The position numbers and the translations under genes are program-made. Under the pieces are notes generated by a model that was given only the letters and a program-made list of their open reading frames with translations, did no database searches and was not told the DNA's origin. DNA of 40,836 nucleotides from an uncultured Bacteroidales bacterium (GTDB lineage Bacteria; Bacteroidota; Bacteroidia; Bacteroidales; Muribaculaceae). The stretch lies in assembly GCA_946011725.1 (NCBI GenBank), contig CAMGBT010000012.1, forward strand, positions 1 to 40,836, read 5' to 3'. Shown here in pieces: positions 69 to 18,657 of this stretch (position 1 is its first letter; each line of letters opens with the position of its first letter).

Positions 69-3000
69 TTAGAAAGAAGCGTTCAGGCCAAAAGTGATGC
101 TGGCGGGGATAGGATAGCCGAAGTTGGGGTTTTCGGGGTCGACACCGGTGAACGAAGCGGCGTGGATGGTGAGCAGGTTTTGGGCGCTCAGATAGAAGCG
201 CAGGCGCTGCAAGTGGATGCGCTCGGTGAGGCGCTCGGGCAGCACGTAGCCGATTTGGATATTGCGCAGCTTCAGGTACGAGCCGTTCTCCACGAAGTAG
301 GTCGACACGCGTTTTTCGTTGTTGACATCGGAGCGAGTCAGCGCGGGGATGTCGCTGTCGGGATTTTGGGGAGTCCAAGCGTCGAGCAGGCGTTCGCCCT
401 TGTTGAGGAAGCCGATATTGAGGCCTGCCCACAGGTCGGTTTCTTTCTTGAGGTCGGAGATAACGTCTTGACCGAAAACGCCTTGCCAGAACATGGAGAA
501 GTCGAAGTTGCGATATTGCAGGTATACGTTGAAGCCGTAAGCGAAGTCGGGCACGGGGCTGTAAATCCACTGTTGGTCCTTCTCGGTGATGCGGCCATCG
601 CCATCGAGGTCGCGCCAGCGGATGCGCCCTACCCCGGCGCCGTCTTGGATGGCGTGGTTGTCAACTTCCTCTTGCGAGCGGAAGATGCCGTCGGCCACGT
701 AGCCGGCTTGCGCACCGTAGGGGTGACCGATTACGCTGTACACGCCGTTGCCGCCGAAGGTGCCGTTAGCAGCCACGGTGGTGGGGATGTCGGTGATTTT
801 GTTGGAGTAAGTGGAGATGTTGGCAGTGAGGTCGTACTGCAGGCCCCAGTCGGTTTTGTCGCGCCAGCCCAGGTTGAGTTCGATACCTTTGTTCTCCATT
901 TCGCCGGCGTTGATCCATTGGGTGGAGCCTTCGCCCATGGCGGCGATGCCCACCATTTGCACCAAGATATCGGTGGTTTTCTTCAGGTAGAAGTCCACGG
1001 AGCCGTAGAAGCGGTTGCGGAGCATGCTCCAGTCGAGACCGGCGTTGTACTGAGTGGTGGTTTCCCACTTGATGTCGGGGTTGCCGATTTGGTCGCGCTT
1101 GAAGCCGGATTGGAGGATGGAGCCGCCGTTGGTGCCGGCGATGTCGTAGGAAGTGCCGTAGGATTGGCCGCCGGATTCGCTCACGCCGTAGTTAGGCACG
1201 TAGATGTAATAGCGGGCGGTGTTGGCGATTTCTTGGTTACCGGTCTGACCCCACGACAGGCGCAGCTTGAGGTCGTCGAGCCAAGAGTGGGTATCGGCCA
1301 TGAAGGCTTCGTTGCCGATGCGCCAACCTGCTGATACTGAGGGGAATGTGGCGTAGCGGTTGTTAGCACCGAAGCGCGAGGAACCGTCGTGGCGCACGGT
1401 CACGCCCAGCAGGTAGCGGCTGTCGAACGAGTAGTTGGCTTTGGCAAAGAACGACACCAGCGAGAAGCCGTCGCCCGAGCCGTAGGCTTGAGATGTGCCC
1501 ACACCGCTGTCGGGCCACATGAAGTCGGGTTTGAGCACCGAGAAGTCGGTTTTGTAAGCGGAGAACCATGAGGAGTTTTCGCGGTTGAGCTCCATACCCA
1601 CTAAGGCGTCAACGTGGTGCACGCCGAAGTCTACGTTGTAGTTAGCCACGAGGTTCCACATCCAGCGAGTCCAGTGCTCTTGCTTGGCTTCGACGGCGTT
1701 GGTGGAGTTGGCCACGTTGCCTTCGGTGATGGGATAGGTGAAGATGCGCTGTTGCTTTTGGGAGTAGTCGAGGCCGAAGGTGGTGCGGACGTTGAAGCCC
1801 TTGAAGGGGTTGATGTTGAGGTAAGCATCACCGAACAGGCGCCAGTAGGTGTAGCGGTTGTCCTTGTTGCGCTCCAAGCGTGCCAGCGGGTTCTCGCGGT
1901 CGGGATAGCCGCCAACAGGGCCGGCAAATTCGCCGGTGGTGGTGTATACCGGCAGCGAGGGGTTGAATTGCAGCACGTTTTCGAGGAAGCCGCCGGGGGC
2001 TTGCACTTCGGAGGTGCGGTTGATGGTGAAGTGTTCGCCGAAGGTCACCATCTTGTTGAGCAGGTTGTACTCGGTGTTCATACGAGCGGAGAGGCGTTCG
2101 AAGTCGGAGTACTTGATGATACCCATGTTCTTATAGTAACCCAATGAGAAGAAGGCGCTCATTTGGTCGGTGGAGCCGCTCACGCTCAGGTTGTAATTCT
2201 GGGTGACGCCGGTGCGAGTGGTTTCGTCGAGCCAGTCGGTGTCGGCCGAGGGAGTGGTGCCGGCAGCGTCGAGGTAGCGGTCCATGGTGATGGAGTGGAG
2301 CACCGGGTAGCCGGCGGCGTCGTAGCCCCAATTGTAGTTGTAGCCGAGGCCGTTGGTGTTGGGGTCTTGACCGTCGTTGACGTAAGCCTGCCACATGGCG
2401 CGGCCGTAGCCTTCGGCGTTGAGCACCTTCAGTTGGTTGGTGTAGAACTGGGCGGCCACCGATGCATCGAGGGTCACGCGCAGGTCTTTACCCTTCTTGG
2501 TGGTGATGATGATCACACCATTGGCCGCACGCGATCCGTAGATTGATGCCGATGCGGCATCCTTCAGAATCTGGATTGACTCGATGTCGTTGGGGTTGAG
2601 TTCGTGCATGCCGCTCTTGGTGGGCACGCCGTCGATGATGTAGAGGGGGTCGTTGTTGTTGAGGGTGCCAATACCGCGGATGCGCACGGTGGCGGCGCCG
2701 CTGGGCGAACCCTCAGCGCTGATGTTCATGCCGGGCACGCGGCCTTGCAGCGCTTTGATGGGGTTGTTTTCGTTTTGCTTGGAAATTTCGTTGACGTCGA
2801 CGGCTGTGATGGCGCCGGTCACGTCCACTTTTCGTTGGGTTGAGTAACCCACGGCCACCACTTCGTTCAGAAGCAAAGCGTCCTCCTTGAGGCGGACGGT
2901 CATACCGTCGGTGGCTTGTACGGTAGTGGTTTGAAAACCAATGTAAGAAATGGTGAGCTTCTCACCCGAGGGCACGGAGATGGTGAAGTTGCCATCATAG

Positions 3001-3185
3001 TCGGTGGTGACACCTTGATTGGCTGAGGCGGGCACCACGGATGCACCAATCAGCGGCTCATCGTCTGTGGCTGACAGTACGGTACCGTGCACGGTGATGT
3101 CCTGAGCCTGCAATGAATACATTGCAAAGAGCATCACCACGACGCTTAGAAGGCGCGTCAGATGGGGGGGGTAATTTGTACGCAT
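69..3185 (-). CDS. SusC-family TonB-dependent outer-membrane transporter (second SusC of the locus)
   Basis: The 1038-residue protein would import oligosaccharides through the outer membrane with energy from TonB. A signal peptide ending near SLQAQ is followed by a carboxypeptidase-D-like N-terminal domain (about residues 28-105), a plug domain with the SusC signatures DPLYIIDGVP and ILKDAASASIYGSRAANGV, and a long beta-barrel ending in an aromatic residue (GLNASF). The N-terminal domain is nearly identical to that of the other SusC in this window (VLSATDDEPLIGASVVPAS in both), while the barrels differ. Codons 5-8 contain a run of eight C on the coding strand just inside the signal peptide. 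It lies downstream of a LamG-GH32 gene and a hairpin and precedes the start of a SusD-like gene. The substrate is probably a fructan or fructo-oligosaccharide, inferred from neighbours. Confidence 0.93.
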   Translation of the reverse strand: MRTNYPPHLTRLLSVVVMLFAMYSLQAQDITVHGTVLSATDDEPLIGASVVPASANQGVTTDYDGNFTISVPSGEKLTISYIGFQTTTVQATDGMTVRLKEDALLLNEVVAVGYSTQRKVDVTGAITAVDVNEISKQNENNPIKALQGRVPGMNISAEGSPSGAATVRIRGIGTLNNNDPLYIIDGVPTKSGMHELNPNDIESIQILKDAASASIYGSRAANGVIIITTKKGKDLRVTLDASVAAQFYTNQLKVLNAEGYGRAMWQAYVNDGQDPNTNGLGYNYNWGYDAAGYPVLHSITMDRYLDAAGTTPSADTDWLDETTRTGVTQNYNLSVSGSTDQMSAFFSLGYYKNMGIIKYSDFERLSARMNTEYNLLNKMVTFGEHFTINRTSEVQAPGGFLENVLQFNPSLPVYTTTGEFAGPVGGYPDRENPLARLERNKDNRYTYWRLFGDAYLNINPFKGFNVRTTFGLDYSQKQQRIFTYPITEGNVANSTNAVEAKQEHWTRWMWNLVANYNVDFGVHHVDALVGMELNRENSSWFSAYKTDFSVLKPDFMWPDSGVGTSQAYGSGDGFSLVSFFAKANYSFDSRYLLGVTVRHDGSSRFGANNRYATFPSVSAGWRIGNEAFMADTHSWLDDLKLRLSWGQTGNQEIANTARYYIYVPNYGVSESGGQSYGTSYDIAGTNGGSILQSGFKRDQIGNPDIKWETTTQYNAGLDWSMLRNRFYGSVDFYLKKTTDILVQMVGIAAMGEGSTQWINAGEMENKGIELNLGWRDKTDWGLQYDLTANISTYSNKITDIPTTVAANGTFGGNGVYSVIGHPYGAQAGYVADGIFRSQEEVDNHAIQDGAGVGRIRWRDLDGDGRITEKDQQWIYSPVPDFAYGFNVYLQYRNFDFSMFWQGVFGQDVISDLKKETDLWAGLNIGFLNKGERLLDAWTPQNPDSDIPALTRSDVNNEKRVSTYFVENGSYLKLRNIQIGYVLPERLTERIHLQRLRFYLSAQNLLTIHAASFTGVDPENPNFGYPIPASITFGLNASF

Positions 3186-3284: not shown

Positions 3285-5648
3285 TTAACGAATGATTACT
3301 TTGGAAGTTACGGATCCTTGGCGACGGATATAGATTCCGGGGGCGAGGTCGCCGCTGACGCGTTGGCCCTGGAGGTTAAAAAAATCTACGGGGGCATCGG
3401 GATCGAGGGCGGAGGAGTCGTCGTCGGTGGTTACATCGAAGATGCCGCCGGAGCCCTTGGGGTCGAGCACCCATGCGTTGAGCGAGCGCACTTCCACCGC
3501 GCCGTTGGTGGAGTACACGCGCACGCCGTCGGCATCAGCTTCGGTGGGGAAGATGCGCACCGACGATGCCCAGCGGTCGTTGACGAACACGTCCACGATG
3601 GAGTGGTCGATGAATACGTCGAGCTTCAACTCGCTGCCGGCTGAGAGGTACTCGGGCAGCGGCATGGTGTAGAGGCCGTTGAACGAGCCGCCGTCGTTGA
3701 CGATGCGGTACAGGCGCGAGCAGTCGAGCACCACGGAGTTGGATTGGGGATTGTAGTAGATGGATGCTTCGCCGTTAGCGCTCTTGAAGAACTTGAAGCC
3801 GAAGGGGTTGGAGCCGATGGTGAACACGCCGCAGAGTTCGATGGCGCGGCCGCTCACTTCGCCCAGCTCTTCGGAGCCGTTGAGCGAGAAGTCAGCCTTG
3901 GAGTAGGAGGTGGCGGAGTGCAAGCCGCTGAGACCGGAGTAAGGTTTCTGCACCAATTGGTCGCCGTCGAGGCTCCATTCGCGCGGAAGCGAGTAGCAGT
4001 GAGCCCAGCCCAGGCGATAGTTTTCATTACCGCCGAGGATGTCGGGCACGATACCCAAAGCGAGGGTCTTGCCATCGTGCTGATAGATGGTGGGCGACAG
4101 CAGGCCGAAGCCGTTGCCGTTGCTGAGTTCCACGGGGCGGCCGTGCGAGGAAGAGGCATCGGGGGCGAAGGTGCCGTCGTCGTTGATGGAGCCGGTCCAA
4201 TAGAGCGAGCGCACGCCGGAGGTGGCGCCTAAGGGGGTGGCGGTGAACAGCCATGTGCCGTTCTCCATCTTGGTAACGTTGCTCATTTCCCAGAAGATGC
4301 CATCTTGGGCGGAGTTGGAGCCGCGGAAGAAGATGGAGCCGTCGTTGCTCCAAGTGCCGTTCGAGGCATTGTAGCGGTGGAGGGTGCAAGCGCCCATACC
4401 GTCCTTGTTGGTGCCCACGATGATGTAAGCATTATCGCCGTTGCGGAAGAAGTAGGGGTCGCGGAAGTCATCCGACAGACCGTCGGGACGGTTGGGAATG
4501 AGCTCGCCCTGCTTGGTCCACTTGATGAGGCCATCGTTTTTGGGTGTAGCGCCGATGATGGACGCATGGCCGTAGTCCACACCGGTGTAGATGATGTAAG
4601 GCTTGCCGCCGCCGATTACCGGGTCGGTGAATACGGCGCCGCTCCAGCAGCCTTTGATGTCGTAATAGTCGCCGGGCATGATGGCCACGGGCTCTTCGCG
4701 CCAGTCATAAAGGTTCTCCGAGGAGATGTGACCCCAGTGGAGGCGGCACATGTACGGGCCGTTGGCATTCTTTTGGAAGAATACGTGGTAACGGCCGTTG
4801 GAGTAAACCATACCGTGGCATTCGTTGGTCCAGCCGGTGGCGGGCATGCCGTGGAAGCGGGGGCGAAGCAGGTCGTCGGCAAAGCGCGATTCAGGGATGG
4901 AGAGGTCGGCAGTGTTCTCGGCCTTCCACGATTGGATGGTGGCGAGGTCGACCACTTCGTTCCACACTTGCACCTCGTCGATGAGGCCGTTGAAAGCGGT
5001 GGTGCAGAACGGGCCGAGGTAGTTGTCGGTGGCGTTGTGGCCCACGATGAGTTTGCCGGGACCAAGCTTGAGCACGCCGTTAGCGCGGCAGCTGCCCACC
5101 TCTTCGCCATTGAGATAGAGGGTGATTTTGCGCGCTGAGTCGCAGTCGTACACAGCCACTAAGTTGTTCCATTGATAAGTGGGCATAGGCTTGTCGACGG
5201 CGATTTCCACCGGCCAACCGCCCACATAGGTCTTGAACGACCACTTGCCCTCGAAGCTGATGCCGAAAGCGAAGCCGCTCTTGTTGTCCTCGTCCAAGCA
5301 GCTGAAAATGTTCACCTTGTCGGTGCTGTATTGGTCGGGGTATACGATGGGATAGGTTTCGATAGCCACCCACATCGACACGGTCATTTGCTTGGTGTTC
5401 TCGGGCAGAGTGTTGGTGATAGAGCCGTTGATTTGAGTGGTGTAGCCATCAAATCGGAGGGCTTCACCCACAGCTCCGGCCACGTTCTCTGCCGGAAGGT
5501 GGCCCACAACGCCGAAGCGGTCGCCGGAAACTTGCTCAACCAAGCGGCTGGAGCGCAAATCCATCGGGAAGTGCATCACCAAGTCGGCCATGGCGGCGGG
5601 TGCGAGCGCCAAGCAGGCAGTTAGGAGTGAAAGTAAGCGCTGTTTCAT
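3285..5648 (-). CDS. Secreted LamG-GH32 protein with variant nucleophile motif (NECHG)
   Basis: The 787-residue protein has a signal peptide (residues 1-21, ending AMA), a LamG/concanavalin-like domain (about 22-215), a GH32 five-bladed propeller (about 262-560), the GH32 C-terminal beta-sandwich (about 580-735), and a C-terminal tail FFNLQGQRV...PGIYI. GH32 landmarks are present: WGH, the transition-state motif RDP (Asp397) and the acid/base region (WEMSN, Glu454). The usual WMNDPNG reads WTNECHG, placing Glu276 where GH32 enzymes have the Asp nucleophile. It closely resembles the LamG-GH32 part of the 1898-residue neighbour, so the two probably arose by duplication. The role is a fructan-active enzyme, or a fructan binder if the Asp-to-Glu change is inactivating. 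The absence of a lipobox suggests secretion or anchoring through the C-terminal tail. Confidence 0.85.
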   Translation of the reverse strand: MKQRLLSLLTACLALAPAAMADLVMHFPMDLRSSRLVEQVSGDRFGVVGHLPAENVAGAVGEALRFDGYTTQINGSITNTLPENTKQMTVSMWVAIETYPIVYPDQYSTDKVNIFSCLDEDNKSGFAFGISFEGKWSFKTYVGGWPVEIAVDKPMPTYQWNNLVAVYDCDSARKITLYLNGEEVGSCRANGVLKLGPGKLIVGHNATDNYLGPFCTTAFNGLIDEVQVWNEVVDLATIQSWKAENTADLSIPESRFADDLLRPRFHGMPATGWTNECHGMVYSNGRYHVFFQKNANGPYMCRLHWGHISSENLYDWREEPVAIMPGDYYDIKGCWSGAVFTDPVIGGGKPYIIYTGVDYGHASIIGATPKNDGLIKWTKQGELIPNRPDGLSDDFRDPYFFRNGDNAYIIVGTNKDGMGACTLHRYNASNGTWSNDGSIFFRGSNSAQDGIFWEMSNVTKMENGTWLFTATPLGATSGVRSLYWTGSINDDGTFAPDASSSHGRPVELSNGNGFGLLSPTIYQHDGKTLALGIVPDILGGNENYRLGWAHCYSLPREWSLDGDQLVQKPYSGLSGLHSATSYSKADFSLNGSEELGEVSGRAIELCGVFTIGSNPFGFKFFKSANGEASIYYNPQSNSVVLDCSRLYRIVNDGGSFNGLYTMPLPEYLSAGSELKLDVFIDHSIVDVFVNDRWASSVRIFPTEADADGVRVYSTNGAVEVRSLNAWVLDPKGSGGIFDVTTDDDSSALDPDAPVDFFNLQGQRVSGDLAPGIYIRRQGSVTSKVIIR

Positions 5649-5710: not shown

Positions 5711-8700
5711 TTATTTAACGAGAAATTTAGTAGTTTTATTGCCTTGAATTAGAATATAAATGCCGGGGGTGAGGTTAGAACCGTCCACTTCGATACCTTG
5801 CAGGTTGAAGAAGCGAGCGGGACCTTCCTCAGCGGGTGCAACTTCCACATCCTCAGCGCCCGACACACCACCACTAACCGGATCCCAGTAGTAACCGGCG
5901 AGGTAGTTGAGCGAGTTGAGGGTGAAGATTTCCACATTAGTTTGATATTCTTCAACATTGCCATCGGTCCACTGGTAAGCGGAAGCGCCGCATGCTAAAA
6001 TACAACCCTGAACACTTTCTTTCTCATAGTCCGGATCGAACTGCACTACCGTGGGATAGGCGTCATCGGTGTTTTGGTGCCAAGTACCTAATAGACGATA
6101 GCGAGTAGCATCTTCACCAAGTGCGGTCAATGTGGATTTCTTCCAGAAGCAGTTGTAGTTGGTGGAGGTGGCACTGCCGCCAATCATCGGGAAGGATACC
6201 GATTCGGATATAGTGGTCAAGTTGTTGTAAATCGGGTGACGAGTTCCGCCGTCGAAGGCTTCGTTACCTTCAAAATCACACCTGATAGCCCATACATCTT
6301 CGTTGTCTTTGAGGACTGTTTCCCACAAATCGGGAAGCGCTGAGACGCGGCCTAAGCTCTTGGCGAAGACGTTGCCGTAGTTGGTAAGCAGGAAGTTACC
6401 TTTGGCAGCATAGTACGAGTTGAACGCCTCTTGCTTATCGAACAAAGATGTAGGCAGCGCAGAATCGCTATCATTTTCGGGACGGCTGAATCCGGGACGG
6501 CTGATGTTTACCCAAATGGTCTTGTAATTGGTGGTATTGATGACCGAGCCCGGGGTGTTGGTGGTGATGAACTCACCATGGCCGGTCGATACAACGGTTT
6601 CCATGAACCATTCGGCAGCATTCTTCTCTTGGGTAGAACCGATCTCAGCCACGTCAGCAGCATCAATCCACATACCGAGGTAGATCTTTTGGCGGTTGTT
6701 GTCAACCAAGTAGCGGAGACAGTTGTCGGAGAGACGTTCCATATTGGCGGTGTAAGCGTTGGCATCGTTCCATTGGTAAGCGGAAGCACCGTTGGCGATG
6801 ATGCGGCCTTTACCGTTGATGGGATAGAACTCAACCATTATGGCGGAAGCATCATCTTTTACGTGAGTCCAGGTGCCAAGCACTTTGGCCACGCAAGTTT
6901 CTTCGAACTTAACAACTTTGTTGACGCCATCGCCTTTCAAGCCGAGGCCTTCCGCAGCGAGATCCCAGCACCAGTTTTGGTCATAGCGCTGGATGGTTTC
7001 ACCGGTGTTGCAACCAATCAAAGGATATGTTTGGAATGGAGCACTTTGCAATGTGCCCATTTGGAGACCGGCAAATACCGGGTGAGAGGTATTGTCGCGA
7101 TACCAACCATGGGCGGCGATGCCATTGTAGTTGATATACGGGTTGATACCCCACCAGTCGTTAGGATCAGATATGGTTTCAGTGTTGTATTTAAGAACGG
7201 AAGTGGGCTTGAGGTCCGCGGTGATGCGGCCAAGCTTCACGAGCATATCGGTGGCCATCTTCGACAGATACAAAGCGCCGCCGGCATCGCAATAGCTTTG
7301 GAATGCGGGCCAATTATTGTTGAGGTAATCGGTCAGAGCATCCTTAGTGTAGCCGTTGCGGTCGAGGTTTACCCACACGCATGCGTAGTTGTCGGTGGTG
7401 ATGGTGGAGGCATCAGTTGTATTGGTGATAAATTCACCGGTGCCTTGGTATACCCATGCGCGCTTGAACCATTCGGCTGCGGAGCGTTCTTGCTGCGAAG
7501 CGATAGTCTTAACGCGGTCGGAGTCAATGTACATAGCCACCTTCGACTCGGGGTTGGTGTCGCCGGCCAAGAAGTTGATAGCATTGGCAGTGAGGCGTTC
7601 CACGTTGTCGATGTACAAGTTGTTGGCATCGTTGGTTTGCCATTGATAAGCGCCCACGCCGTTGGTGATGATGGTGCCGGATGTGCCGGTGGCGGGGAAT
7701 TCCACAATCAGAGCCACGGAACCATCGTTGTGGTCCCAAGTGCCGAGCACCTTGGCGCCGGTGCCGGAGAGTGAAGAGGCATTCCAACCGGTGTTGTGGT
7801 CTTCGCGGTAGAGTGTTCCCTCGCCGTTGCCATGCATACCGTAGGACAGATACGGGTTCGTGCTGAGCGTTTGGCTGTACAGACCGTTTGCCAAGAATTG
7901 AGCCGATGCATTTCCATCGGTGAACAAACGAATCCACCAGTCGCCGGTAGTTTCGCCACCGGCAGCATTGCCGGCTAAGTCTACATTCGCGGAAATGCGA
8001 CCGAGGTTGACCGCATACTGCGAAGCGGCCTTGGTGAGGTAGAAGTTATGGCCTTTATTATAATACTTCTTGAAGGCATCGAGGTTCTCAATCAGGTAAG
8101 CGGGAAGGGCGGAACTACCCACGCGGTCAACGTTAATCCAAACTACATCGTATTTGGCAGAGCCGTCCGACCAATAGAGTTCGGGAGCAGAAGCGTTGGT
8201 GATGAAAGCACCGGTGCCTTGTTCCACGTAGGTGGCTTGGAACCATTGTGCAGCAGCTTTTTCCTGCGGGGAAGTGATTTCGCCCACGGAGGGAGCATCG
8301 ATGAACATACCCACTTTCAGAGGTTCGCGAGTAGATTCGGAAGAGCCGCTACCGCTGCCGGAACCGCTTTCGGAAGAAGCTTTGGGGTCGAGCACCCAGG
8401 CGTTGAGCGACTTAACGGTAACATTGCCGGTGGAGTACACGCACAGACCATCGGCATCGTCGTTAAGGGGATAAACGCGCACCGACGAAGCCCAGCGGTC
8501 GTTAACGAACACATCCACAATGGAGTGGTCGATGAATACATCGAGTTTCAGCTCGCTGCCTTTGGCGAGGCTTTCGGGGATGGGCATAGTGTACAAGCCT
8601 CTCCAGTGGTCCCAGTCGTTGACTTCGCGGGCGAGAGTTGAACAGTTAAGAGTCACTGTATTGGTGGCCGGATCGTATGAGATCGAGGCTTCGTTGTCGC

Positions 8701-11407
8701 CGGTCTTGAAGAACTTAAAGCCGAAGGGAGCATCACCGATGGTGAATACACCGCAGATTTCGACAGAGCGACCGTTCACAGCGCCAAGCTCTTCTTCACC
8801 ATTATTAATAGTGAAATTGGATTTGGTGTAAGAAGTGGCGGTGCGGAGACCGGTGAGGCCGGAGTACGGCTTTTGGATGAGGGTTTCGCCTTCGAGGCTC
8901 AATTCGCGAGGCAGCGAATAGCAGTGAGCGGCGAAGCCGTGATTCTTACGAACAATTTGCGCCAAAATGTCGGGCACGATGCCCAGGCACAGGGTTTTGC
9001 CGTTGTGCTGATAAATGGTGGGCGAGAGCAAGCCGAAACCATTACCGGCGCACAGCTCCAAATTCTTACCGTTTGTGAAATCGGCAACGAATTTGCCGTC
9101 AGCGTTGATAGAGCCGGTCCAATAGAGCGTGCGAACACCTTTTCCTAAGACGTCGGCACAACCTAAAGGAGTAGTGGTGAAGAGCCACTTGCCGGTTGGC
9201 ATTAAGGTGACGTTGCTCATTTCCCAGAAGTCACCGTAGTCAGCTGCATTGGGGCTTTGGAAAAAGATGTCGCCTTCGTTGTTGCTCCAAGTGCCATCGG
9301 CGGCATTATAGCGGTGGAGAGTGCAAGCGCCGAGGCCGCCCTTGTTGGTACCCACGATGATGTAAGCATTATCTCCGTTGCGGAAGAAGTATGGGTCGCG
9401 GAAGTCGCCCGACAAGCCGTTGGGGCGACCGGGGATGAGTTCGCCTAATTTGGTCCAATTAACCAAATCTGCGTCTTCAGGCGATGCGCCTACGATAGAT
9501 GCATGGGTGTAGTCTACACCGGTGTAGATGATGTAGGGATTACCGGCACCGATGACGGGGTCGGTGAACACGGCTCCACTCCAGCAGCCTTTGATGTCGT
9601 AAGCATCGCCGGGCATGATGGCCACGGGCTCTTCGCGCCAGTCATAAAGGTTCTCCGAGGAGATGTGGCCCCAGTGCTGACGAAGCATCTCAGGGCAGTT
9701 GGCATTCCATTGGAAGAAGAGGTGATAACGGCCGTTGGAGTAAACCATGCCGTGACATTCGTTTGCCCAACCGGCGCCGGGCATGCCGTGGAAGCGGGGG
9801 CGCCACTTATCGTTAGCGAAGCGCGATTCGGGGATGGTGAGGTCGGCCTCGTTCTCGGGCTCCCAAGCTTGGATAGTGGAGAGGGGAATGACTTCATTCC
9901 ATACTTTCACATCATCAAGCAAGCCGTTGAATGCAGTGATACAGAACGGACCTTCATAGATATCACTTGCATTGTGGCCGACAATGAGTTGGCCGGGGCC
10001 GAGCTTGATGACACCGTTAGCGTTAGCGCTACCCACTTCCTTACCATTAAGGTAGAGGATTATTTTCGAGGCGGCATCGCAGTCGAGCACGGCCACCAAG
10101 TTGTTCCACTGATAAGTGGGCATGGGGGTGTCGACCGGGATTTCAACGAGGTTATCGCCCACGTAGGTCTTGAACGACCACTTACCTTCGAAGCTGATGC
10201 CGAAGGCGAAGCCGCTCTTGTTGGCATCGTCCAAGCAACTGAAAATGTTCACCTTGTCGGTGCTGTACAGGTCTTTTTTTACGATGGGATATGTTTGGAT
10301 AGCCGTCCACAGCGACACAGTCATTTGCCGTGAGCCCTCGGGCAATGTATTGGTAATGGTGCCGTTGATTTGAGTGGTGTAGCCATCGAAGCGGAGGGCT
10401 TGACCGGCGGCGCCGGGCAGGTTCTCGGGAGCGAATTGGCCTTCAACATGGAACTTGGTGCCGGTGACTAAGTCGTACACATACTTACTATTGTGCAACT
10501 CCATAGGGAAGTGCATTACCAAACCGGTGAAACCGGCCAAGTAGTTGAGCGTGTTCGAGGTCAGGCGCTCCACGTTGGAGATGTACTTATTGTTGGTGTC
10601 GGCACTTTGCCATTGATAAGCGGCCACGCCGTTGGTGATGATGGTGCCGGAAACGCCATCGGTGGCGGGGAATTCCACAATCAGAGCCACGTTGCCCTTG
10701 TTGTGGTCCCAAGTGCCGAGCACTTTACAGTTATAGGTAGATTCGAAAGTAGCTTTAGTTGCTTCAGCAGCACCTTCGTCTCCACCGTTATCCCAGCCCA
10801 CATTGTGGTTTTCGCGATACAGCGAAGTGTTGCCATCGCCGGTGCCATGTATATAGTAGGATGGATAGCCTTTGTCACCGAACTTAGTGTAAGTCAGGCC
10901 GTTAGACATGTATTTGGCGGAGGCATTTTCGGTAAATAAGCGAATGAGCCAGTCGTCATAGCCTTGGCCGCCGGCTTCGACATTACACATATTCACATCC
11001 TTTGTCATACGACCAAGGCTCACCGCATACTTGGTAGCGACCTTGGTGAGGTAGAAGTTGTGACCTTCGTTATAATACTTCTTGAATGCAGCGAGGTTGT
11101 TGGTGAGGTATGAGGGGAGGTTCGCATCACCAACGCGGTCCACGTTTATCCAAATAACATCGTATTTGGGCGTGCCGCCGGGCTGATACAGCACCGGAGC
11201 GGCATCATTGGTGATGAAGGCGCCGATGCCTTGGTCCACGAAAGCGGACTGGAACCACTGCGCGGCGGCCTTCTCCTGAGGCGAGGCTATGCCATCGACG
11301 GAGGTAGCGTCGATAAACATGCCCACTCGCAGCGGTTCGGCCCAGGCCGAACCGCCGGCGAGCAGAGCCAGCGTCAGGGTTAATATTTTTATTAAACTCT
11401 GTTTCAT
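5711..11407 (-). CDS. Giant secreted protein: four DUF4960-type domains with internal LamG-GH32
   Basis: The 1898-residue protein has a signal peptide (1-23, ending AWA), then copy 1 of a ~270-residue domain (24-293), LamG (about 295-515), a GH32 propeller and sandwich (about 535-1005), a Ser/Gly/Glu linker (about 1008-1026), domain copies 2 (about 1027-1285), 3 (about 1287-1565) and 4 (about 1572-1840), and a tail FFNLQGIEV...PGIYI. The repeated domain carries the marks EKxAAxWF, W(I/V)N(V/I/L)xR, L(S/T)xxxxxxxxxLGR, VLGTW and AYQW. It matches the SusE-position lipoprotein of this locus and a family I believe is Pfam DUF4960, found in the levan-binding BT1761. In the GH32 part, Glu550 sits in NECHG at the nucleophile position, Asp671 in RDP and Glu729 in WEMSN. 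The inferred role is fructan capture, with hydrolysis if the active site works. It starts 19 bp after the 354-residue gene. Confidence 0.85.
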   Translation of the reverse strand: MKQSLIKILTLTLALLAGGSAWAEPLRVGMFIDATSVDGIASPQEKAAAQWFQSAFVDQGIGAFITNDAAPVLYQPGGTPKYDVIWINVDRVGDANLPSYLTNNLAAFKKYYNEGHNFYLTKVATKYAVSLGRMTKDVNMCNVEAGGQGYDDWLIRLFTENASAKYMSNGLTYTKFGDKGYPSYYIHGTGDGNTSLYRENHNVGWDNGGDEGAAEATKATFESTYNCKVLGTWDHNKGNVALIVEFPATDGVSGTIITNGVAAYQWQSADTNNKYISNVERLTSNTLNYLAGFTGLVMHFPMELHNSKYVYDLVTGTKFHVEGQFAPENLPGAAGQALRFDGYTTQINGTITNTLPEGSRQMTVSLWTAIQTYPIVKKDLYSTDKVNIFSCLDDANKSGFAFGISFEGKWSFKTYVGDNLVEIPVDTPMPTYQWNNLVAVLDCDAASKIILYLNGKEVGSANANGVIKLGPGQLIVGHNASDIYEGPFCITAFNGLLDDVKVWNEVIPLSTIQAWEPENEADLTIPESRFANDKWRPRFHGMPGAGWANECHGMVYSNGRYHLFFQWNANCPEMLRQHWGHISSENLYDWREEPVAIMPGDAYDIKGCWSGAVFTDPVIGAGNPYIIYTGVDYTHASIVGASPEDADLVNWTKLGELIPGRPNGLSGDFRDPYFFRNGDNAYIIVGTNKGGLGACTLHRYNAADGTWSNNEGDIFFQSPNAADYGDFWEMSNVTLMPTGKWLFTTTPLGCADVLGKGVRTLYWTGSINADGKFVADFTNGKNLELCAGNGFGLLSPTIYQHNGKTLCLGIVPDILAQIVRKNHGFAAHCYSLPRELSLEGETLIQKPYSGLTGLRTATSYTKSNFTINNGEEELGAVNGRSVEICGVFTIGDAPFGFKFFKTGDNEASISYDPATNTVTLNCSTLAREVNDWDHWRGLYTMPIPESLAKGSELKLDVFIDHSIVDVFVNDRWASSVRVYPLNDDADGLCVYSTGNVTVKSLNAWVLDPKASSESGSGSGSGSSESTREPLKVGMFIDAPSVGEITSPQEKAAAQWFQATYVEQGTGAFITNASAPELYWSDGSAKYDVVWINVDRVGSSALPAYLIENLDAFKKYYNKGHNFYLTKAASQYAVNLGRISANVDLAGNAAGGETTGDWWIRLFTDGNASAQFLANGLYSQTLSTNPYLSYGMHGNGEGTLYREDHNTGWNASSLSGTGAKVLGTWDHNDGSVALIVEFPATGTSGTIITNGVGAYQWQTNDANNLYIDNVERLTANAINFLAGDTNPESKVAMYIDSDRVKTIASQQERSAAEWFKRAWVYQGTGEFITNTTDASTITTDNYACVWVNLDRNGYTKDALTDYLNNNWPAFQSYCDAGGALYLSKMATDMLVKLGRITADLKPTSVLKYNTETISDPNDWWGINPYINYNGIAAHGWYRDNTSHPVFAGLQMGTLQSAPFQTYPLIGCNTGETIQRYDQNWCWDLAAEGLGLKGDGVNKVVKFEETCVAKVLGTWTHVKDDASAIMVEFYPINGKGRIIANGASAYQWNDANAYTANMERLSDNCLRYLVDNNRQKIYLGMWIDAADVAEIGSTQEKNAAEWFMETVVSTGHGEFITTNTPGSVINTTNYKTIWVNISRPGFSRPENDSDSALPTSLFDKQEAFNSYYAAKGNFLLTNYGNVFAKSLGRVSALPDLWETVLKDNEDVWAIRCDFEGNEAFDGGTRHPIYNNLTTISESVSFPMIGGSATSTNYNCFWKKSTLTALGEDATRYRLLGTWHQNTDDAYPTVVQFDPDYEKESVQGCILACGASAYQWTDGNVEEYQTNVEIFTLNSLNYLAGYYWDPVSGGVSGAEDVEVAPAEEGPARFFNLQGIEVDGSNLTPGIYILIQGNKTTKFLVK

Positions 11408-12680: not shown

Positions 12681-13871
12681 TTATTTGAGGTAATTCAGAA
12701 TATTAGTGGTGAGGCCTTCGATGTTGCCTTGATAGAGGTTAGCACCGGAGTTTTGGTTCCATTCGTAGGCAGCCAAGCCATTGGCGATGCAACGGCCGCG
12801 GGTGTCGTCGGCATAGAATTCCACCATGGCGGCAACGCAGTGGTCGCGCACGTGGCCCCAAGTAGCGAGTACCAAGGAGTTGGTGGTCACTTCAAAGTTC
12901 TTGATTACGTCGGGATAAGCGCCACGGCCGTAGATGTTGCAGTCCCAGAGGCAGTTGTGGTCTTCACGTTCGCCGGGGCCGATGAGGGGCAGGTTGGGAT
13001 AGCCGTAGTTGTTGGGGTCTTCGAAGGTGAGGCCTTTGTAGATGTCGTGGGTGGTGCGGTCGTAGAAGCCTTGGTCGGAGCCTTCGCGGAAGTCCCAGCC
13101 CAGGTAAGCTTGGAGTACCCAAACGTCAGTGCCGGAACCGCCCATGCCGTTACCGTAAACGGTCGGGTTCATATTTTCGGGGGTATAGCCCAGAGGCACG
13201 GAGAGCTGAGTGGCGTGGTTCGACAGGTAGAAGCTACCGCCGTTGGCCGAGTATTCACGCAGAGCGGCGATGGTTTCTTCCGACACCAGTTCGGCGGGGA
13301 GGTTTTCCCAGCCCAAGGGGAGACCTACGCGGTCAACCATAATCCAGAGCACCGACACGGTGGCGGGGTCGAGGGAAGCGATTTCCGAAGGACGAACCAA
13401 CACGGTGTTGGGTTGAGCGGCAAACCACTTGGCAGCGGCTTGTTCGTCGTCATCGGGCAGTGCTTCGGGAGAATCGGCAAGCAGCACGAAGCCTACTTTG
13501 GATTCTACGAAGGGGATGGTTACTTTGGTGGAGATGCCTTCCGACACGTGACCATCGGCGTAAGCCACTTTCACGGTGTAGAGGATTTCCTTGTCCATGG
13601 GTTGACCCTTGAGGGTGAAGGTGGTGGCATCGGCGGGCAGCACGGTGGGGTTACCGCCATCGCGGCTTACCCATACGGCTTGGATGTCGCCTTGGGGCAG
13701 AGCCCAAGAGAGGGTGACGGTGCGGCCCGACACCTCGGCGGTGAGGTTCGTGGCTTTTGCCAACACGGGCACGGGATCGTAGCCGGTGGGCTCGAAGTCG
13801 GAGCATGAGTGGAGCGAGCAGCCTAATACCAGAGCCACTACCACGGTGAGATATAATGATATACGTTTCAT
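12681..13871 (-). CDS. SusE-position surface lipoprotein, putative fructan-binding (BT1761-like)
   Basis: The 396-residue protein has a lipoprotein signal with lipobox LHSC (Cys23), a fibronectin-III-like domain (about 35-125; TNLTAEVSGRTVTLSW), and the ~270-residue domain shared with the 354- and 1898-residue proteins (about 128-396; DDEQAAAKWF, VLWIMVDRVG, GGSFYLSNHATQL, VLATWGHVRD, LAAYEW). It follows susD by 20 bp, the usual place for SusE-type surface glycan-binding proteins. In the B. thetaiotaomicron levan locus the protein at this place, BT1761, is a levan-binding part of the outer-membrane utilisome; equivalence is inferred from position and domain. Unlike its relatives in this window it lacks the NLQG tail, as expected if the lipid is its anchor. 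Confidence 0.82.
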   Translation of the reverse strand: MKRISLYLTVVVALVLGCSLHSCSDFEPTGYDPVPVLAKATNLTAEVSGRTVTLSWALPQGDIQAVWVSRDGGNPTVLPADATTFTLKGQPMDKEILYTVKVAYADGHVSEGISTKVTIPFVESKVGFVLLADSPEALPDDDEQAAAKWFAAQPNTVLVRPSEIASLDPATVSVLWIMVDRVGLPLGWENLPAELVSEETIAALREYSANGGSFYLSNHATQLSVPLGYTPENMNPTVYGNGMGGSGTDVWVLQAYLGWDFREGSDQGFYDRTTHDIYKGLTFEDPNNYGYPNLPLIGPGEREDHNCLWDCNIYGRGAYPDVIKNFEVTTNSLVLATWGHVRDHCVAAMVEFYADDTRGRCIANGLAAYEWNQNSGANLYQGNIEGLTTNILNYLK

Positions 13872-13891: not shown

Positions 13892-15574
13892 TTATTTATA
13901 GAGGTCGCCGGCGTTGTCAACTTGGTTGACGGGGATGGGACAGAAGATGTCGTCATCGCTCATGGAGGCGTTTTGGTAGTAGGAGTGTACTTTTGCTTCG
14001 GAAGCGTAGTATTTGTTCATGTGGTCGGCCACGTTGCCCCAGCGTACCAGGTCAAACCAGCGGTGGCCTTCCATGGCGAGCTCGATGCGGCGTTCCATGC
14101 GCACGGCGCGGCGAGCGTAGTCCTGATTCCAGCCTTCGGCGGGATATTCGGCGCAAGCGTAGGAAGCGAGCATGGGGTTGCAGTCAACGGGTGCGTAGTT
14201 GCCGTCAACGGAGTTCATGGCGCGGCGACGGATTTGGTTGATCAGATCGCGAGCTTCGTCCAAGTTCTTGTTTTGCTCGATCAGGGCTTCAGCCTTCATG
14301 AGCATTACGTCGGCGTAGCGGATGAGGCTCCAGTTGAGCGAAGAAGCGCCCCAAGGCACGATACCAACCTTAACGTAAGGCGATTCGGGTGCGGGATAAG
14401 GCTTCTTGCCGGAGTATTGGCCGTAGAGCTCGAGGTTGCGGCACCATTTTTCGTTGTAGGTGTGACCGCGCCAAGGCATACCGATGCGGCCGAGGGTGAA
14501 GTCCAAGCGGGGGTCAACGTTGCCGGGATAGTCGGCGCGGTCGATGTTCACGTCGTTGAAAGTACCGTCGAGGTAGGGCAGGCCGCGTTCGTCGGTGCGG
14601 AAGGAGTTCACAAGGTTTTGGGAAGCGAGATAGAAGTCGTCGCCGTTGCCGTAGAGGTTACCTTCGCTCCAGGTGCAGTTCAAGCAGTTGTTGAAGTTGT
14701 ATTGATTGGGAGCGTTGGCGCTGGAGAATTGGATTTGCATCACAGCTTCGTACATGTTGTTGTACTCGGGCTTGGACATATCGAGGAAGTTGGGATAGAG
14801 CTGGTATTGACCGGAAGCGATCACGTAGCCGGCGTATTCTTCGGCTTCAGCCCAGGAGGAGGTGAACAGGTCCACGCGGGCGAGGATGGCAGCTGCCACG
14901 TAGCGGTTGAAGCGGCCTACTTGTGCTTGGGTAGCGGGCAGGGCTTTGTAAGCTTGACGCAGGTCTTCTTTGATGAACTCTACGATTTGGTCGCGAGTGT
15001 ATTCATCGGCGCGGCAAGCGCTGGGGTCAACCACGGTTTCGTCGAAGTAGGGGAACTTCTTGAAGATGCGGTACATGTCGAAGTAGTAGTAAGCGCGGAG
15101 GGTCTTCATTTCGGCCACCATGATCACCTTGTCGGCGTCGGAGATGGCTGAGGAGCCCATGATGGCTTTGATAGCCACGTTGCAGCGGGAGATGGAGTAG
15201 TAGTTGTTGCGCCACTTGAAGTTGAGGATATCGTTGTCGGACTGCACGTTACCTACTTCCATTTGGTGCATGTAGGCTTCCATGGTCACACCGTCGCCGC
15301 CTTTGAGGGCGTCGTCGGAACGCACGTCGAATACCCAGTTGTTGATGGGGCCGGCGAAGGATTCGTTGTTGCCGAAGAAGTGGCACATCAGGGTGGCGTA
15401 AGCAGCGGTGAGCATATCCACAGCTTCTTCGTCGCCGATTTGTTCAGTGGTGAACGAGCCTTGGGGCTTGGTGTCGAGCAGGTCGTCGCACGAGGTGGCG
15501 CCGAAAGCCATGGCGGTCAATGCCACTGCGCAGGCTGCGTTCTTTATGATGGATTTCATATTGATTGATTTCAT
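13892..15574 (-). CDS. SusD-family outer-membrane lipoprotein
   Basis: The 560-residue protein has a signal peptide with lipobox ATSC followed by DDLLDTKPQGSFT, the typical SusD mature start. The SusD/RagB helical fold is indicated by MKTLRAYYYFDMYRIF (TPR-like region) and the C-terminal ERRIELAMEGHRWFDLVRWG motif near residue 520. It would act as the lid and binding subunit over the SusC barrel. It starts 18 bp after the SusC stop and is followed by the SusE-position lipoprotein. The first ATG is used here; a second ATG five codons later (15559) gives an equally good signal peptide. Confidence 0.95.
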   Translation of the reverse strand: MKSINMKSIIKNAACAVALTAMAFGATSCDDLLDTKPQGSFTTEQIGDEEAVDMLTAAYATLMCHFFGNNESFAGPINNWVFDVRSDDALKGGDGVTMEAYMHQMEVGNVQSDNDILNFKWRNNYYSISRCNVAIKAIMGSSAISDADKVIMVAEMKTLRAYYYFDMYRIFKKFPYFDETVVDPSACRADEYTRDQIVEFIKEDLRQAYKALPATQAQVGRFNRYVAAAILARVDLFTSSWAEAEEYAGYVIASGQYQLYPNFLDMSKPEYNNMYEAVMQIQFSSANAPNQYNFNNCLNCTWSEGNLYGNGDDFYLASQNLVNSFRTDERGLPYLDGTFNDVNIDRADYPGNVDPRLDFTLGRIGMPWRGHTYNEKWCRNLELYGQYSGKKPYPAPESPYVKVGIVPWGASSLNWSLIRYADVMLMKAEALIEQNKNLDEARDLINQIRRRAMNSVDGNYAPVDCNPMLASYACAEYPAEGWNQDYARRAVRMERRIELAMEGHRWFDLVRWGNVADHMNKYYASEAKVHSYYQNASMSDDDIFCPIPVNQVDNAGDLYK

Positions 15575-15592: not shown

Positions 15593-18500
15593 TTAGAACT
15601 GCAGGTTAACACCGAGGGTGAAGGTGCGAGGACGGGGATAAGCACCGTTGTCGACGTGTGCACCGTATTCGCCGGGGAGGATTTCGGGGTCGAGGCCGCT
15701 GTAACCGGTGAGGGTGAATACGTTCTCAACTTGGCCGTAAACGCTCAGTTGGCTTACACCTAACTTGGTGAGCAGGTTGGCGGGCACTGCGTAGGAGAGT
15801 TTGAGGTATTTCATCTTCATGTAGGAGCCGTCTTCCACGTAGTAGGTGGAGAAGCGAGCTTCGTTGTTGTCGTCGGTGAGGGTCAGCGCGGGGATGTCCG
15901 AACCGGTGTTGGTGGGCGACCATGCGTTGAGGATGTCTACGCCGCGGTTGGTGGCCAAGTTGCCGTAAGCCATGGAGTAGAGCTGACGTTTCATGTGGTT
16001 GATGATGTCGAAGCCGAAGTCACCGGCGAAGAACATATCGAGCGAGAAGTTGCGATAGTTGAGGGTCAGGTTGAGGCCGAGGTTCAAGTCGGGGTTGGGG
16101 TCGCCGATGATGCAGCGGTCGGATTCGTTGATGAAGCCGTCGCCGTTGAGGTCGCGGTAGATCAGACGGCCGGGAGCGGCGCCTTGTTGGATGGCGTGGT
16201 TAGCCACTTGCTCGGTGGTTTGGAAGATGCCGTCGCATACATAGCCGTAGTAAACGCCCATGGGCTGGCCGGGGATCAGGCGGATGTCGCCACCTACGAA
16301 GGCTTGGCGCGAGTTAAGTGCCACCACTTCGTTCTTGTATTGCGACAGGTTCAAGCTACCGCTCCACGAGAAGTCGCCGTACTTGCGGCTGTTGTAGCTG
16401 ATAGCGAGTTCCCAACCGTGGTTCTTCATGTCGCCGGTGTTGAGCCATACGGCTGCGTTTTCACCTGCTACGTCCAAGGCTGGCGGAATGGTGAGCATGT
16501 CTTTGGTTTTCTTGATGTAGTAGTCGGCGCTTACGCTGAGGGAGCCGTTGAGGAACCACATATCCAAGCCGATGTTGTGCTGTGTGGTAGTTTCCCATTT
16601 GAGGTCGGGGTTACCGGAAGCAGCCAGGGTGATACCGGAGGTAGTGCCGCTGTTGGTGCCGTCGATGTCGTAAGCACCGTTGCCGGTATTATAAATATAT
16701 GTGGAGTAAGCGGGATAGAGCGAGGGGATGTTGGCGTTACCGTTTTGGCCCCATGAGTAGCGGATCTTCAAGTCGGAGAGGATGTTGTTCTTCGGGAAGA
16801 AGGATTCGGAGGTGGGACGCCATGCTACGGATGCTGCGGGGAACACGCCGGCGCGGTTGTCCTTGGCGAAGCGCGAGTTTTCGTCGCGACGGATGGTGAA
16901 CGAAGCTAAGTAGCGGTCGGCGAAGTTGTAGTCGACTTTACCGAACAGCGAGAACACGCTCCATTGGGTTTTGCCACCGCCGGAGTATTGTTCGCCGGTA
17001 CCGGCACCTACTTGCATGAAGTCGGAGTCTTCGAAAGCGAAGCCTTCGCGCGAGCCGCTTACGTCCTTGAAGGTGTAGCCGATGGCTTCGGAGCCAACGA
17101 GCACGCCCAGATGGTGCACGCCGTTGAAGGTCTTCAGGTAGTTGGCGGTGTTGGTCCAAGTCCAGGTGTCGCCTTGGCCGTAAACGCTACCGGTGGAGTT
17201 AACGTCGCCGGGGTTAACGGTGCGGCCGTGGGTTACGTTGAAGTATTGGCTGTGCTCGATACCGAGGTTGGTTTTGAGGGTGAGACCGTCGATGGGTTTC
17301 ACTTCCAAGTAAGCGTTGCCGAGGATGCGCCAGGAGGAGAAGTCGTTGTCGGCAGCGTTGGCGATGAGCTGCATGGGGTTAGCCAAGTCGGAGGAAATCA
17401 GGGCCAAGGGACGAGTCCACGAACCGTCGAGGCCTTTCACGGGGATGGCGGGGTGTTGGCTCATAGCGGTGAAGGGGATACCGCGGTCGCCGGCTACGTC
17501 AACACCACGGTTGGTCCAGCGAGCTACCAACAGGTTTTCGCCTACGCTTACGTATTGGTTGAAGTTGTAGTGCGAGTTCACACGTGCGGAGTAGCGTTCG
17601 TAGAAGGTGTCTTGGATGTTACCGTTTTGGTTGATGTAGTTGAGCGAGAACAGGGTTGAACCCTTGTCGGAGCTGTTGGAGATCGAAGCGGTGAGGTTGT
17701 TGGTCCAAGCGGTGCGGTATACTTCGTCCTGCCAGTCGGTGTAGGTGGTAGGATAGTTGGGATCGCCGCAGTTGGGTTGGAGCACGGGGGTGTCGCCGTC
17801 GCCGTAGAGCACGTGCGAGGGTTTGATGCCGGAGTTGGCGGAAGCCACCCAGTAAGCTTGACCCCATTGCTCGGCGTTGAGCATTTCGTAGCGCTTGGCC
17901 AGAGTTTGGGCGCTCAGAGCGTAGTTCACGTTTACGGTGAGGCGGCCGGTGTTGCCTTGCTTGGTGGTGATGATTACTACACCGTTGGCTGCGCGCGAAC
18001 CGTAGATAGAAGCGGATGCGGCGTCCTTCAGCACTTGCATCGATTCGATGTCGGCGGGGTTGATAACGTTGATGTTATCGGTGGGCACGCCGTCGATGAT
18101 GTACAGAGGATCGTTGCTGGAGTTGGCGGTGGACATACCGCGCACGCGGATGGAGCCGGTGCCGCCGGGGGCTGCGTCGGGGATTACGTTCACACCGGCC
18201 AGCTTGCCCGAAAGGGAGTTGAGAATGTTACCGGAGGTTTCGCTCACGGGTTTCTTCATGTCCATCACCGACACGGCGCCGGTGAGGTCGGCTTTACGTT
18301 GTACCGAGTAACCCACTACCACCAGCTCTTGCAGAGCGGCCACGCTCTCGTTCAGGCGGATGGTCATGTTGGGCTGAGCTTTCACGGAAAGGGTTTCAAA
18401 GCCAACATAAGAAATGTTAAGAACTGTGTTCTCAGGCACGGAGATGGTGAAGTTGCCATCGTAGTCGGTGGTGACACCTTGATTGGTAGAGGCGGGCACC

Positions 18501-18628
18501 ACGGATGCGCCGATCAGCGGCTCATCGTCGGTAGCCGACAATACCGTGCCGTTCACGGTGATGTTTTGCGCTTGTGCGGTGATGAGTGCCATCAGCATCA
18601 TCAGGGCGCTAAGTAGGTAATGTTTCAT
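15593..18628 (-). CDS. SusC-family TonB-dependent transporter (first SusC, operon with SusD)
   Basis: The chosen start at 18628 gives a 1011-residue protein beginning MKHYLLSALMMLMALITAQA, a clean signal peptide. The frame stays open upstream for 109 codons, but that part is Arg/His-rich and overlaps the fructokinase gene, so it is not coding. Domains are a carboxypeptidase-D-like N-terminal domain (about 24-100), a plug with DPLYIIDGVPTDN and ILKDAASASIYGSRAANGV, and a beta-barrel ending in GVNLQF. It is 29 bp downstream of the fructokinase gene and 18 bp upstream of susD. It should import fructan oligosaccharides; BT1763 holds this position in the B. thetaiotaomicron levan locus. Confidence 0.95.
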   Translation of the reverse strand: MKHYLLSALMMLMALITAQAQNITVNGTVLSATDDEPLIGASVVPASTNQGVTTDYDGNFTISVPENTVLNISYVGFETLSVKAQPNMTIRLNESVAALQELVVVGYSVQRKADLTGAVSVMDMKKPVSETSGNILNSLSGKLAGVNVIPDAAPGGTGSIRVRGMSTANSSNDPLYIIDGVPTDNINVINPADIESMQVLKDAASASIYGSRAANGVVIITTKQGNTGRLTVNVNYALSAQTLAKRYEMLNAEQWGQAYWVASANSGIKPSHVLYGDGDTPVLQPNCGDPNYPTTYTDWQDEVYRTAWTNNLTASISNSSDKGSTLFSLNYINQNGNIQDTFYERYSARVNSHYNFNQYVSVGENLLVARWTNRGVDVAGDRGIPFTAMSQHPAIPVKGLDGSWTRPLALISSDLANPMQLIANAADNDFSSWRILGNAYLEVKPIDGLTLKTNLGIEHSQYFNVTHGRTVNPGDVNSTGSVYGQGDTWTWTNTANYLKTFNGVHHLGVLVGSEAIGYTFKDVSGSREGFAFEDSDFMQVGAGTGEQYSGGGKTQWSVFSLFGKVDYNFADRYLASFTIRRDENSRFAKDNRAGVFPAASVAWRPTSESFFPKNNILSDLKIRYSWGQNGNANIPSLYPAYSTYIYNTGNGAYDIDGTNSGTTSGITLAASGNPDLKWETTTQHNIGLDMWFLNGSLSVSADYYIKKTKDMLTIPPALDVAGENAAVWLNTGDMKNHGWELAISYNSRKYGDFSWSGSLNLSQYKNEVVALNSRQAFVGGDIRLIPGQPMGVYYGYVCDGIFQTTEQVANHAIQQGAAPGRLIYRDLNGDGFINESDRCIIGDPNPDLNLGLNLTLNYRNFSLDMFFAGDFGFDIINHMKRQLYSMAYGNLATNRGVDILNAWSPTNTGSDIPALTLTDDNNEARFSTYYVEDGSYMKMKYLKLSYAVPANLLTKLGVSQLSVYGQVENVFTLTGYSGLDPEILPGEYGAHVDNGAYPRPRTFTLGVNLQF

Positions 18629-18657
18629 TGAATTGATAGTTATGATTAGGTTTGATA

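Follow-up and report, generated by a model that had tools for sequence, protein, structure and literature searches.

Does one gene in a 40,836-nucleotide contig from an uncultured Bacteroidales bacterium (the window) encode both the fructan-binding and the fructan-cutting parts of a machine that Bacteroides thetaiotaomicron builds from separate lipoproteins, and, if so, what would such a protein bind, how would it leave the cell and where did its parts come from? The gene is a single open reading frame at positions 5711..11407 of the minus strand, without an internal stop, encoding a protein of 1898 residues (P0001). It lies in a fructan cluster with GH32, kinase, MFS transporter, SusC/SusD and regulator genes (Table 1), in which the intergenic gaps from SusC through P0006 are 18-189 bp; a simple promoter and terminator scan gave nothing usable. 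We read P0001, with somewhat better than even confidence and from sequence comparison, as an exported, multivalent, endo-type fructanase that arose by local copying of a neighbouring cassette into a DUF4960 array. The host is probably a gut bacterium. A second SusC gene stands at the contig end; its SusD partner, if any, would fall beyond that end.

Table 1. Features of the fructan locus and of P0001, with related genes elsewhere in the same genome (window positions unless a contig is named)
Feature	Position	Strand	Basis
P0001, signal peptide, residues 1-23 (MKQSLIKILTLTLALLAGGSAWA)	11339..11407	minus	sequence, by eye; no lipobox
P0001, DUF4960 copy D1, residues 24-292	10532..11338	minus	PF16324 76.5 bits
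P0001, LamG-like cassette part, residues 297-524	9836..10519	minus	inferred via P0006 (72% identity)
P0001, GH32 module, residues 525-1012	8372..9835	minus	Pfam GH32N/GH32C; triad columns of 24-row alignment
P0001, Ser/Gly-rich linker, residues 1013-1026	8330..8371	minus	sequence
P0001, DUF4960 copy D2, residues 1027-1281	7565..8329	minus	PF16324 78.1 bits
P0001, DUF4960 copy D3, residues 1285-1566	6710..7555	minus	PF16324 60.0 bits
P0001, DUF4960 copy D4, residues 1570-1838, most diverged (end branch 2.02)	5894..6700	minus	PF16324 60.8 bits
P0001, C-terminal tail, residues 1862-1898, like end of type IX type A sorting domains	5714..5824	minus	profile models, HHalign
Second SusC homologue at contig end, just past the fructan genes	69..3185	minus	Pfam
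P0006, LamG-GH32 + tail; apparently the source or the sister of the P0001 cassette	3285..5648	minus	Pfam, alignment, tree
P0002, signal peptide + one DUF4960 + tail, 354 aa	11427..12491	minus	Pfam, tail models
P0003, SusE-position lipoprotein, one DUF4960, no tail	12681..13871	minus	Pfam
SusD homologue	13892..15574	minus	Pfam; best PDB match SusD chains, E 6e-70
SusC homologue, true start probably inside the ORF	15593..18955	minus	Pfam
PfkB family sugar kinase, fructokinase-like	18658..19551	minus	
MFS sugar transporter	19593..20777	minus	
Classical GH32 (DUF4980-GH32), Asp nucleophile	20814..22631	minus	Pfam, alignment
Hybrid two-component regulator; N-terminal part a sugar-binding sensor by eye	22833..25595	plus	
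P0012, giant tail-bearing protein, 1771 aa as ORF	L054:2118-7433 (contig C45)		
324-aa protein, one P0012-type repeat + tail	L054:1128-2102 (contig C45)		
Type IX sortase-like gene	C35:19589-22852		825 bits
Type IX sortase-like gene	C2:27281-30544		484 bits

P0001 consists, in order, of a signal peptide, a first DUF4960 copy (D1), a LamG-GH32 cassette, a Ser/Gly linker, three further DUF4960 copies (D2, D3 and D4) and a C-terminal tail. The four DUF4960 stretches, about 255-287 residues long, score 237 bits in all (Pfam; cut-off 29.2), and each exceeds that cut-off alone in a whole-genome search (60.0-78.1 bits); GH32N (540-847) and GH32C (853-1004) score 143 and 64 bits. Pfam reports no LamG in P0001 itself, even at E<=10, and we assign this domain from an alignment that begins at residue 291 and in which 72% of positions (520 of 724 columns) are identical to P0006, whose LamG scores 69 bits. 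D1 and D2 are 65% identical, and the remaining pairs among the six copies in the window 25-43%. The other two copies belong to P0002 and P0003 (the latter with a weak fn3 match at 41-110, E 0.031), and a seventh copy of the genome lies on contig C45. By eye the N-terminus is an ordinary signal peptide, and no lipobox was seen. The original prediction of four DUF4960 copies with a LamG-GH32 between the first two, of six copies in three genes, and of enzyme and binding-type domains fused in one chain without a lipobox was borne out throughout (for LamG, by way of P0006); the C-terminal tail is a feature absent from its description.

A chain of this kind could also result from two genes being joined in assembly, and the layout is indeed found in one draft genome only (139 contigs): in the match list for 49 genomes from the genus, the one match spanning residues 1-1898 unbroken comes from the genome itself. 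Mis-assembly is nevertheless highly improbable, because the longest exact repeats are only 62 bp (shared with P0006) and 32 bp (within the P0001 gene); in addition, the window contains no N, the cassette differs from P0006 at about 24% of nucleotides, the open frame continues across all of the junctions, and relatives carry other DUF4960-GH32 fusions. P0001 is a real, lineage-specific form of the GH32/DUF4960 fructan apparatus.

We surveyed 297 genomes, 79 of which have DUF4960 among the matches listed, and fetched 20 DUF4960 stretches from 18 genomes (19 from 17 relatives and one from the genome itself). The fusions found in relatives (L038-L043, L045, L046, L048 and L049) have a LamG-GH32 followed by one to three DUF4960 in the stretches fetched. 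LamG-GH32 modules 48-56% identical to that of P0001 occur in 13 other genomes of the genus, among the matches listed for 49, and in those of the relatives' loci that were inspected (L050, L051, L055, L056 and L093) they are separate proteins. Long open frames, for example of 1342 and 1288 residues, resembled further fusions; those checked (G262/L056, G176/L093, G000) proved to be adjacent ORFs sharing one frame.

In a tree of 22 LamG-GH32 modules (the fragments L036, L037, L044_5557 and L046, comprising GH32 and LamG, were left out of alignment and tree), the cassette of P0001 and the adjacent P0006 are sisters with support of 100/100, and the pair sits within a clade otherwise made up of 11 unfused LamG-GH32 proteins (98/94). 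A single clade of all 10 fused modules was rejected (p-AU 1.2e-6), and the tree requires a minimum of two changes between the fused and unfused states. The grouping of the cassette with P0006, together with their amino acid identity (75.7% at the nucleotide level), indicates that the window fusion is local, and the tree and the rejected single clade indicate that it is separate from the LamG-GH32-DUF4960 fusions of relatives. Kinship between cassette and neighbour is thus evident from alignment and tree alike; the direction and time of copying we infer. The cassette begins near the mature N-terminus of P0006 (cleavage placed by eye) and ends before the P0006 tail, and D1-D4 form one clade (99/96) in which D1 and D2 are the closest pair (100/99), in a 69-row DUF4960 tree that carries a long-branch warning for D3 and D4. 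The mature LamG-GH32 part of P0006 or of its ancestor, stripped of signal and tail, would have been copied in-frame into an expanding DUF4960 array.

A profile of window and related DUF4960 sequences (A2, 13 rows) matches chain T of PDB entries 8a9y, 8aa0 and 8aa2 with an E value of 3e-22; this chain is the levan-binding protein of the B. thetaiotaomicron utilisome (SGBPlev, BT1761), a member of the same domain family. SGBPlev is described as binding through W297 and W359, and probably through N295, T350, Q352 and N384 (PMC7618045). We aligned 94 DUF4960 domains to the levan-binding reference, 29 of BT1761 type (reference included) and 65 of window type, the two groups being set by locus number (L009-L035, L054 and the reference versus the rest) and not by a test; N384, which maps to Ala in the printed chain, was left out of the comparison. 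The BT1761-type rows keep N295, T350 and W359 in 28 cases each and Q352 in 27, with W in 17, F in 11 and Y in one at the W297 column. T350, Q352 and W359 are kept in none of the 65 window-type rows, all six window copies included; the N295 column holds a gap in 64 of these and Ser in one, and the W297 column has W in two and mostly F or Y. A REDHNCxWD-like motif has its N and W invariant in all 65. Since the alignment is of low identity and uncertain in that region, we claim no more than that the known levan site cannot be recognised at the aligned positions; judged by these columns, the DUF4960 of P0001 is a subfamily distinct from the B. thetaiotaomicron levan-binding protein.

The SusD homologue gives a similar picture. 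It is identical to the levan SusD at 188 of 521 aligned positions, its nearest solved relative (the best PDB match is to chains named SusD homolog, common to utilisome entries 8aa0-8aa3), and it keeps one of eight levan-site residues of BT1762 (R368; site residues taken from PMC7782687). Contig C45 of this genome carries a levan-type locus of its own, which encodes a SusD, a BT1760-like GH32 and a DUF4960 lipoprotein of BT1761 type; the DUF4960 there keeps N295 and W359 only, with N at T350, V at Q352 and F at W297. With no recognisable levan site in the window and a distinct levan-type locus elsewhere, a levan machine is unsupported and another fructan is likelier. PMC5967196 describes an inulin-using B. 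thetaiotaomicron strain without BT1760 and BT1761 orthologues and gives SusC/SusD as deciding specificity; this, together with the DUF4960 site, the SusD site and the C45 locus, leads us to favour, short of proof, an inulin-type fructan over levan as the probable ligand of the window DUF4960, a reading limited by the low identity of the residue alignment, by a Glu nucleophile that does not alone fix specificity and by a SusD whose nearest relative is the levan SusD.

Levan as the ligand of P0001 is accordingly not borne out by these columns, and we rejected a levan-binding function carried over from the DUF4960 name because the site residues are absent from the window-type rows. That P0001 is nonetheless a levan capture-and-cut protein, a fused equivalent of BT1760 plus BT1761, would agree with the Pfam domain that its DUF4960 share with SGBPlev, with the best PDB match of the window SusD, and with the DUF4960 clone Lev-Lev5, which may belong to either subfamily and for which PMC10076258 reports levan binding at 10-20 nM and inulin binding weaker by a factor of about ten. 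We consider it unlikely, given the two altered sites and the C45 locus, and given that the P0001 GH32 differs in type from BT1760 (PF16346 12.9 bits against a cut-off of 31.4).

The acidic triad of the P0001 GH32 is filled (E550 at the nucleophile position, D671 and E729), with Glu replacing the usual Asp nucleophile. This replacement is general: in a 24-row alignment, Glu occupies the position in 22 of 22 LamG-GH32 modules and Asp in both of the GH32 without LamG, the other two catalytic positions (Asp and Glu) are kept in 22 of 22 LamG-GH32 modules, and a motif listing gives Glu for the fragments L036 and L037 as well. A nucleophile change of this sort, accompanied by the altered motifs WANECHG and WEMSN, might mean that the module has no catalytic activity and that P0001 as a whole is a binding scaffold. 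We think this quite improbable, as the triad positions are filled in all of the aligned LamG-GH32 modules and the endo-inulinase of A. ficuum, an active enzyme, has its Asp nucleophile replaced by Glu43 (PMC13416181). The Glu nucleophile, the filled triad and the A. ficuum parallel point instead to a GH32 that is active and possibly endo-acting. In one clade of long fusions from relatives (L038-L041 and L043), the RDP motif has become RDT or RDC, and another residue takes the place of the Trp that precedes the acid/base Glu.

The tail of P0001 follows the consensus xxxEYFNLQGxxVxxxxLxPGIYIxRxGxKxxKVxxx (corrected A5 model) and scores 67.9 bits with the A1 model, which contains a residue error in three of its 23 rows, and 60.0 bits with the corrected A5 version (window ORFs). 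The A1 model matches 45 places in the genome, whereas a class-wide sample of 98 further genomes gave no match; the tail occurs in 14 of 99 genomes of the order sample (the other 13 weakly, below 30 bits) and in 92 of 99 of the family sample. By HHalign it resembles the type A tails of the same genome (90%, E 1.5e-6, on four template rows only), and 50 column shuffles reached at most 1.5%. The genome encodes SprA (2673 bits) and gives two matches to the type IX sortase. In the order sample 94 of 99 genomes have SprA, and in the family sample 98 of 99 do; since it is nearly universal there, its co-occurrence with the tail in class, order and family does not discriminate. We also compared tails with lipoboxes in 65 ORFs by simple patterns, dropping five edge-cut ORFs and those with a best domain score below 45 bits. 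Among 19 proteins called lipoproteins, 16 have nothing beyond their last domain and three, with doubtful-looking lipoboxes, carry a tail, whereas 35 of 46 non-lipoproteins have a full or degenerate tail, four end at the domain and seven end otherwise. An 861-aa protein with the same tail (window 26807-29392, minus) has no Pfam match at E<=0.001.

We infer from these comparisons that P0001 is probably exported by the type IX route. The host belongs to the Muribaculaceae, of which we take S24-7 to be the older name. Type IX secretion has been described for the S24-7 family (PMC4936053). It is rather doubtful, though worth weighing, that the tail is no type IX signal and that P0001 is an ordinary secretory protein, periplasmic or released otherwise: its tail scores 14.4 bits against TIGR04183, below the curated cut-off of 23, and G063, a genome of the family sample, gives no SprA match despite its 24 tails. 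Such a reading has to contend with the shuffle-controlled resemblance to type A tails, the SprA and sortase genes, the rarity of the tail among proteins called lipoproteins and the little sense that an 1898-residue binding array would make in the periplasm. With type IX export as the preferred route, the expectation that P0001 is secreted or differently anchored stands as to the missing lipobox and is sharpened to a type IX-like tail; its anchoring probably differs from that of the B. thetaiotaomicron lipoproteins. The P0002 tail gives no match at all to TIGR04183, and the curated type A model mostly misses this short lineage-specific tail at its 45 places. Many type IX cargos of the host family may be unannotated.

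Contig C45 encodes a second giant protein, P0012, in which an unannotated repeat (about 240 residues, no Pfam match) occurs four times and which has the same tail as P0001. A BT1760-like GH32 is inserted inside its fourth repeat, and is 78.7% identical in amino acids and 81.7% in DNA to the mature part of the adjacent lipoprotein. Among 18 stretches fetched for comparison from 17 genomes of relatives, 15 contain the BT1760-like GH32, and the short single-repeat protein accompanies it in nine of these 15 (two copies in L081) and is absent from six (L086, a 4.4 kb contig, L087 and L089-L092); an ORF joining the GH32 to the repeat was found in none of the 18, and the P0012 layout is known from one draft assembly. 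P0012 resembles P0001 in being giant and tail-bearing, with a neighbour's GH32 embedded in a repeat array, and differs in its unrelated repeat, in its type of GH32 and in the place of the insertion, which interrupts a repeat where that of P0001 falls between two. The same design is therefore seen at two loci of this genome, built from unrelated repeats.

Three new facts stand out as the strongest: the kinship of cassette and neighbour, a DUF4960 subfamily that lacks the levan site, and the P0012 twin. As a working model, the DUF4960 modules of P0001 would bind a long fructan, for which an inulin type is more probable than levan, and its GH32 would cleave that fructan internally, while SusC/SusD, together with the DUF4960 lipoprotein belonging to that complex, would take up the fragments; ligand, activity, export route and cooperation of the parts are deduced from domain content and gene context. 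More tentatively, and with somewhat less than even confidence, we suggest that the two fructan loci separately made a neighbour enzyme into a module of a giant, type IX-exported array, which would overlay the SusCD utilisome with a second layer that is protein-encoded; the window copy would then be adapted to inulin-type fructan by its Glu-nucleophile GH32 and by a DUF4960 subfamily whose ligand site is new and REDHNCxWD-like. If so, local gene copying would on two occasions in this genome have turned a surface capture-and-cut machine, normally made of separate lipoproteins, into a single exported chain, with type IX export and SusCD loci cooperating in one fructan pathway. DUF4960 itself, proposed as a levan-binding family, splits into two subfamilies, one of which lacks the known levan site.

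One of the closest comparison systems is the B. thetaiotaomicron levan utilisome (BT1760 endo-levanase, BT1761 SGBPlev and BT1762/1763 SusDC), which has in common with the window a GH32 and DUF4960, SusCD, a fructokinase, an MFS transporter and a hybrid two-component regulator. The levan utilisome uses separate lipoproteins docked on SusC and one DUF4960, whereas P0001 is one tail-bearing chain with four DUF4960 of another subfamily, a LamG and another type of GH32; as to enzyme and binder being surface lipoproteins, P0001 has no lipobox and P0003 is a lipoprotein. In open PMC literature (titles and abstract starts), we found no description of the P0001 layout, of its P0012 twin or of type IX export in a fructan locus, and the term DUF4960 occurred in PMC10076258 only. 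That paper proposes DUF4960 as a levan-binding domain and reports its co-occurrence with GH32 in five of 103 Pfam sequences, so that this co-occurrence as such was already in print. Those Pfam proteins and the relatives' fusions have both domains in one polypeptide, as P0001 does; in the fetched relatives' fusions GH32 stands ahead of DUF4960, a DUF4960 in front is seen among them only in the window, and the P0001 cassette, unlike theirs, groups with its own neighbour.

The A. ficuum endo-inulinase INU2 (3RWK) is likewise a GH32 (phmmer E 5e-16 to P0006) and has Glu in place of the Asp nucleophile, as in the P0001 GH32 (PMC13416181); it is a fungal, single enzyme with the motif WMN(D/E)PN, where the LamG-GH32 modules here have W(A/T)NECHG. 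For the tail, the nearest parallels are the multi-modular T9SS cellulases of Candidatus Paraporphyromonas polyenzymogenes and the chitinase FjChiA (PMC5831590), big carbohydrate enzymes of several domains that bear type IX tails; P0001 is built on a similar scale and its tail is type IX-like. The genome encoding those cellulases is said to lack typical polysaccharide loci (PMC5831590), whereas P0001 lies inside a SusCD locus and carries a tail that is short and lineage-specific.
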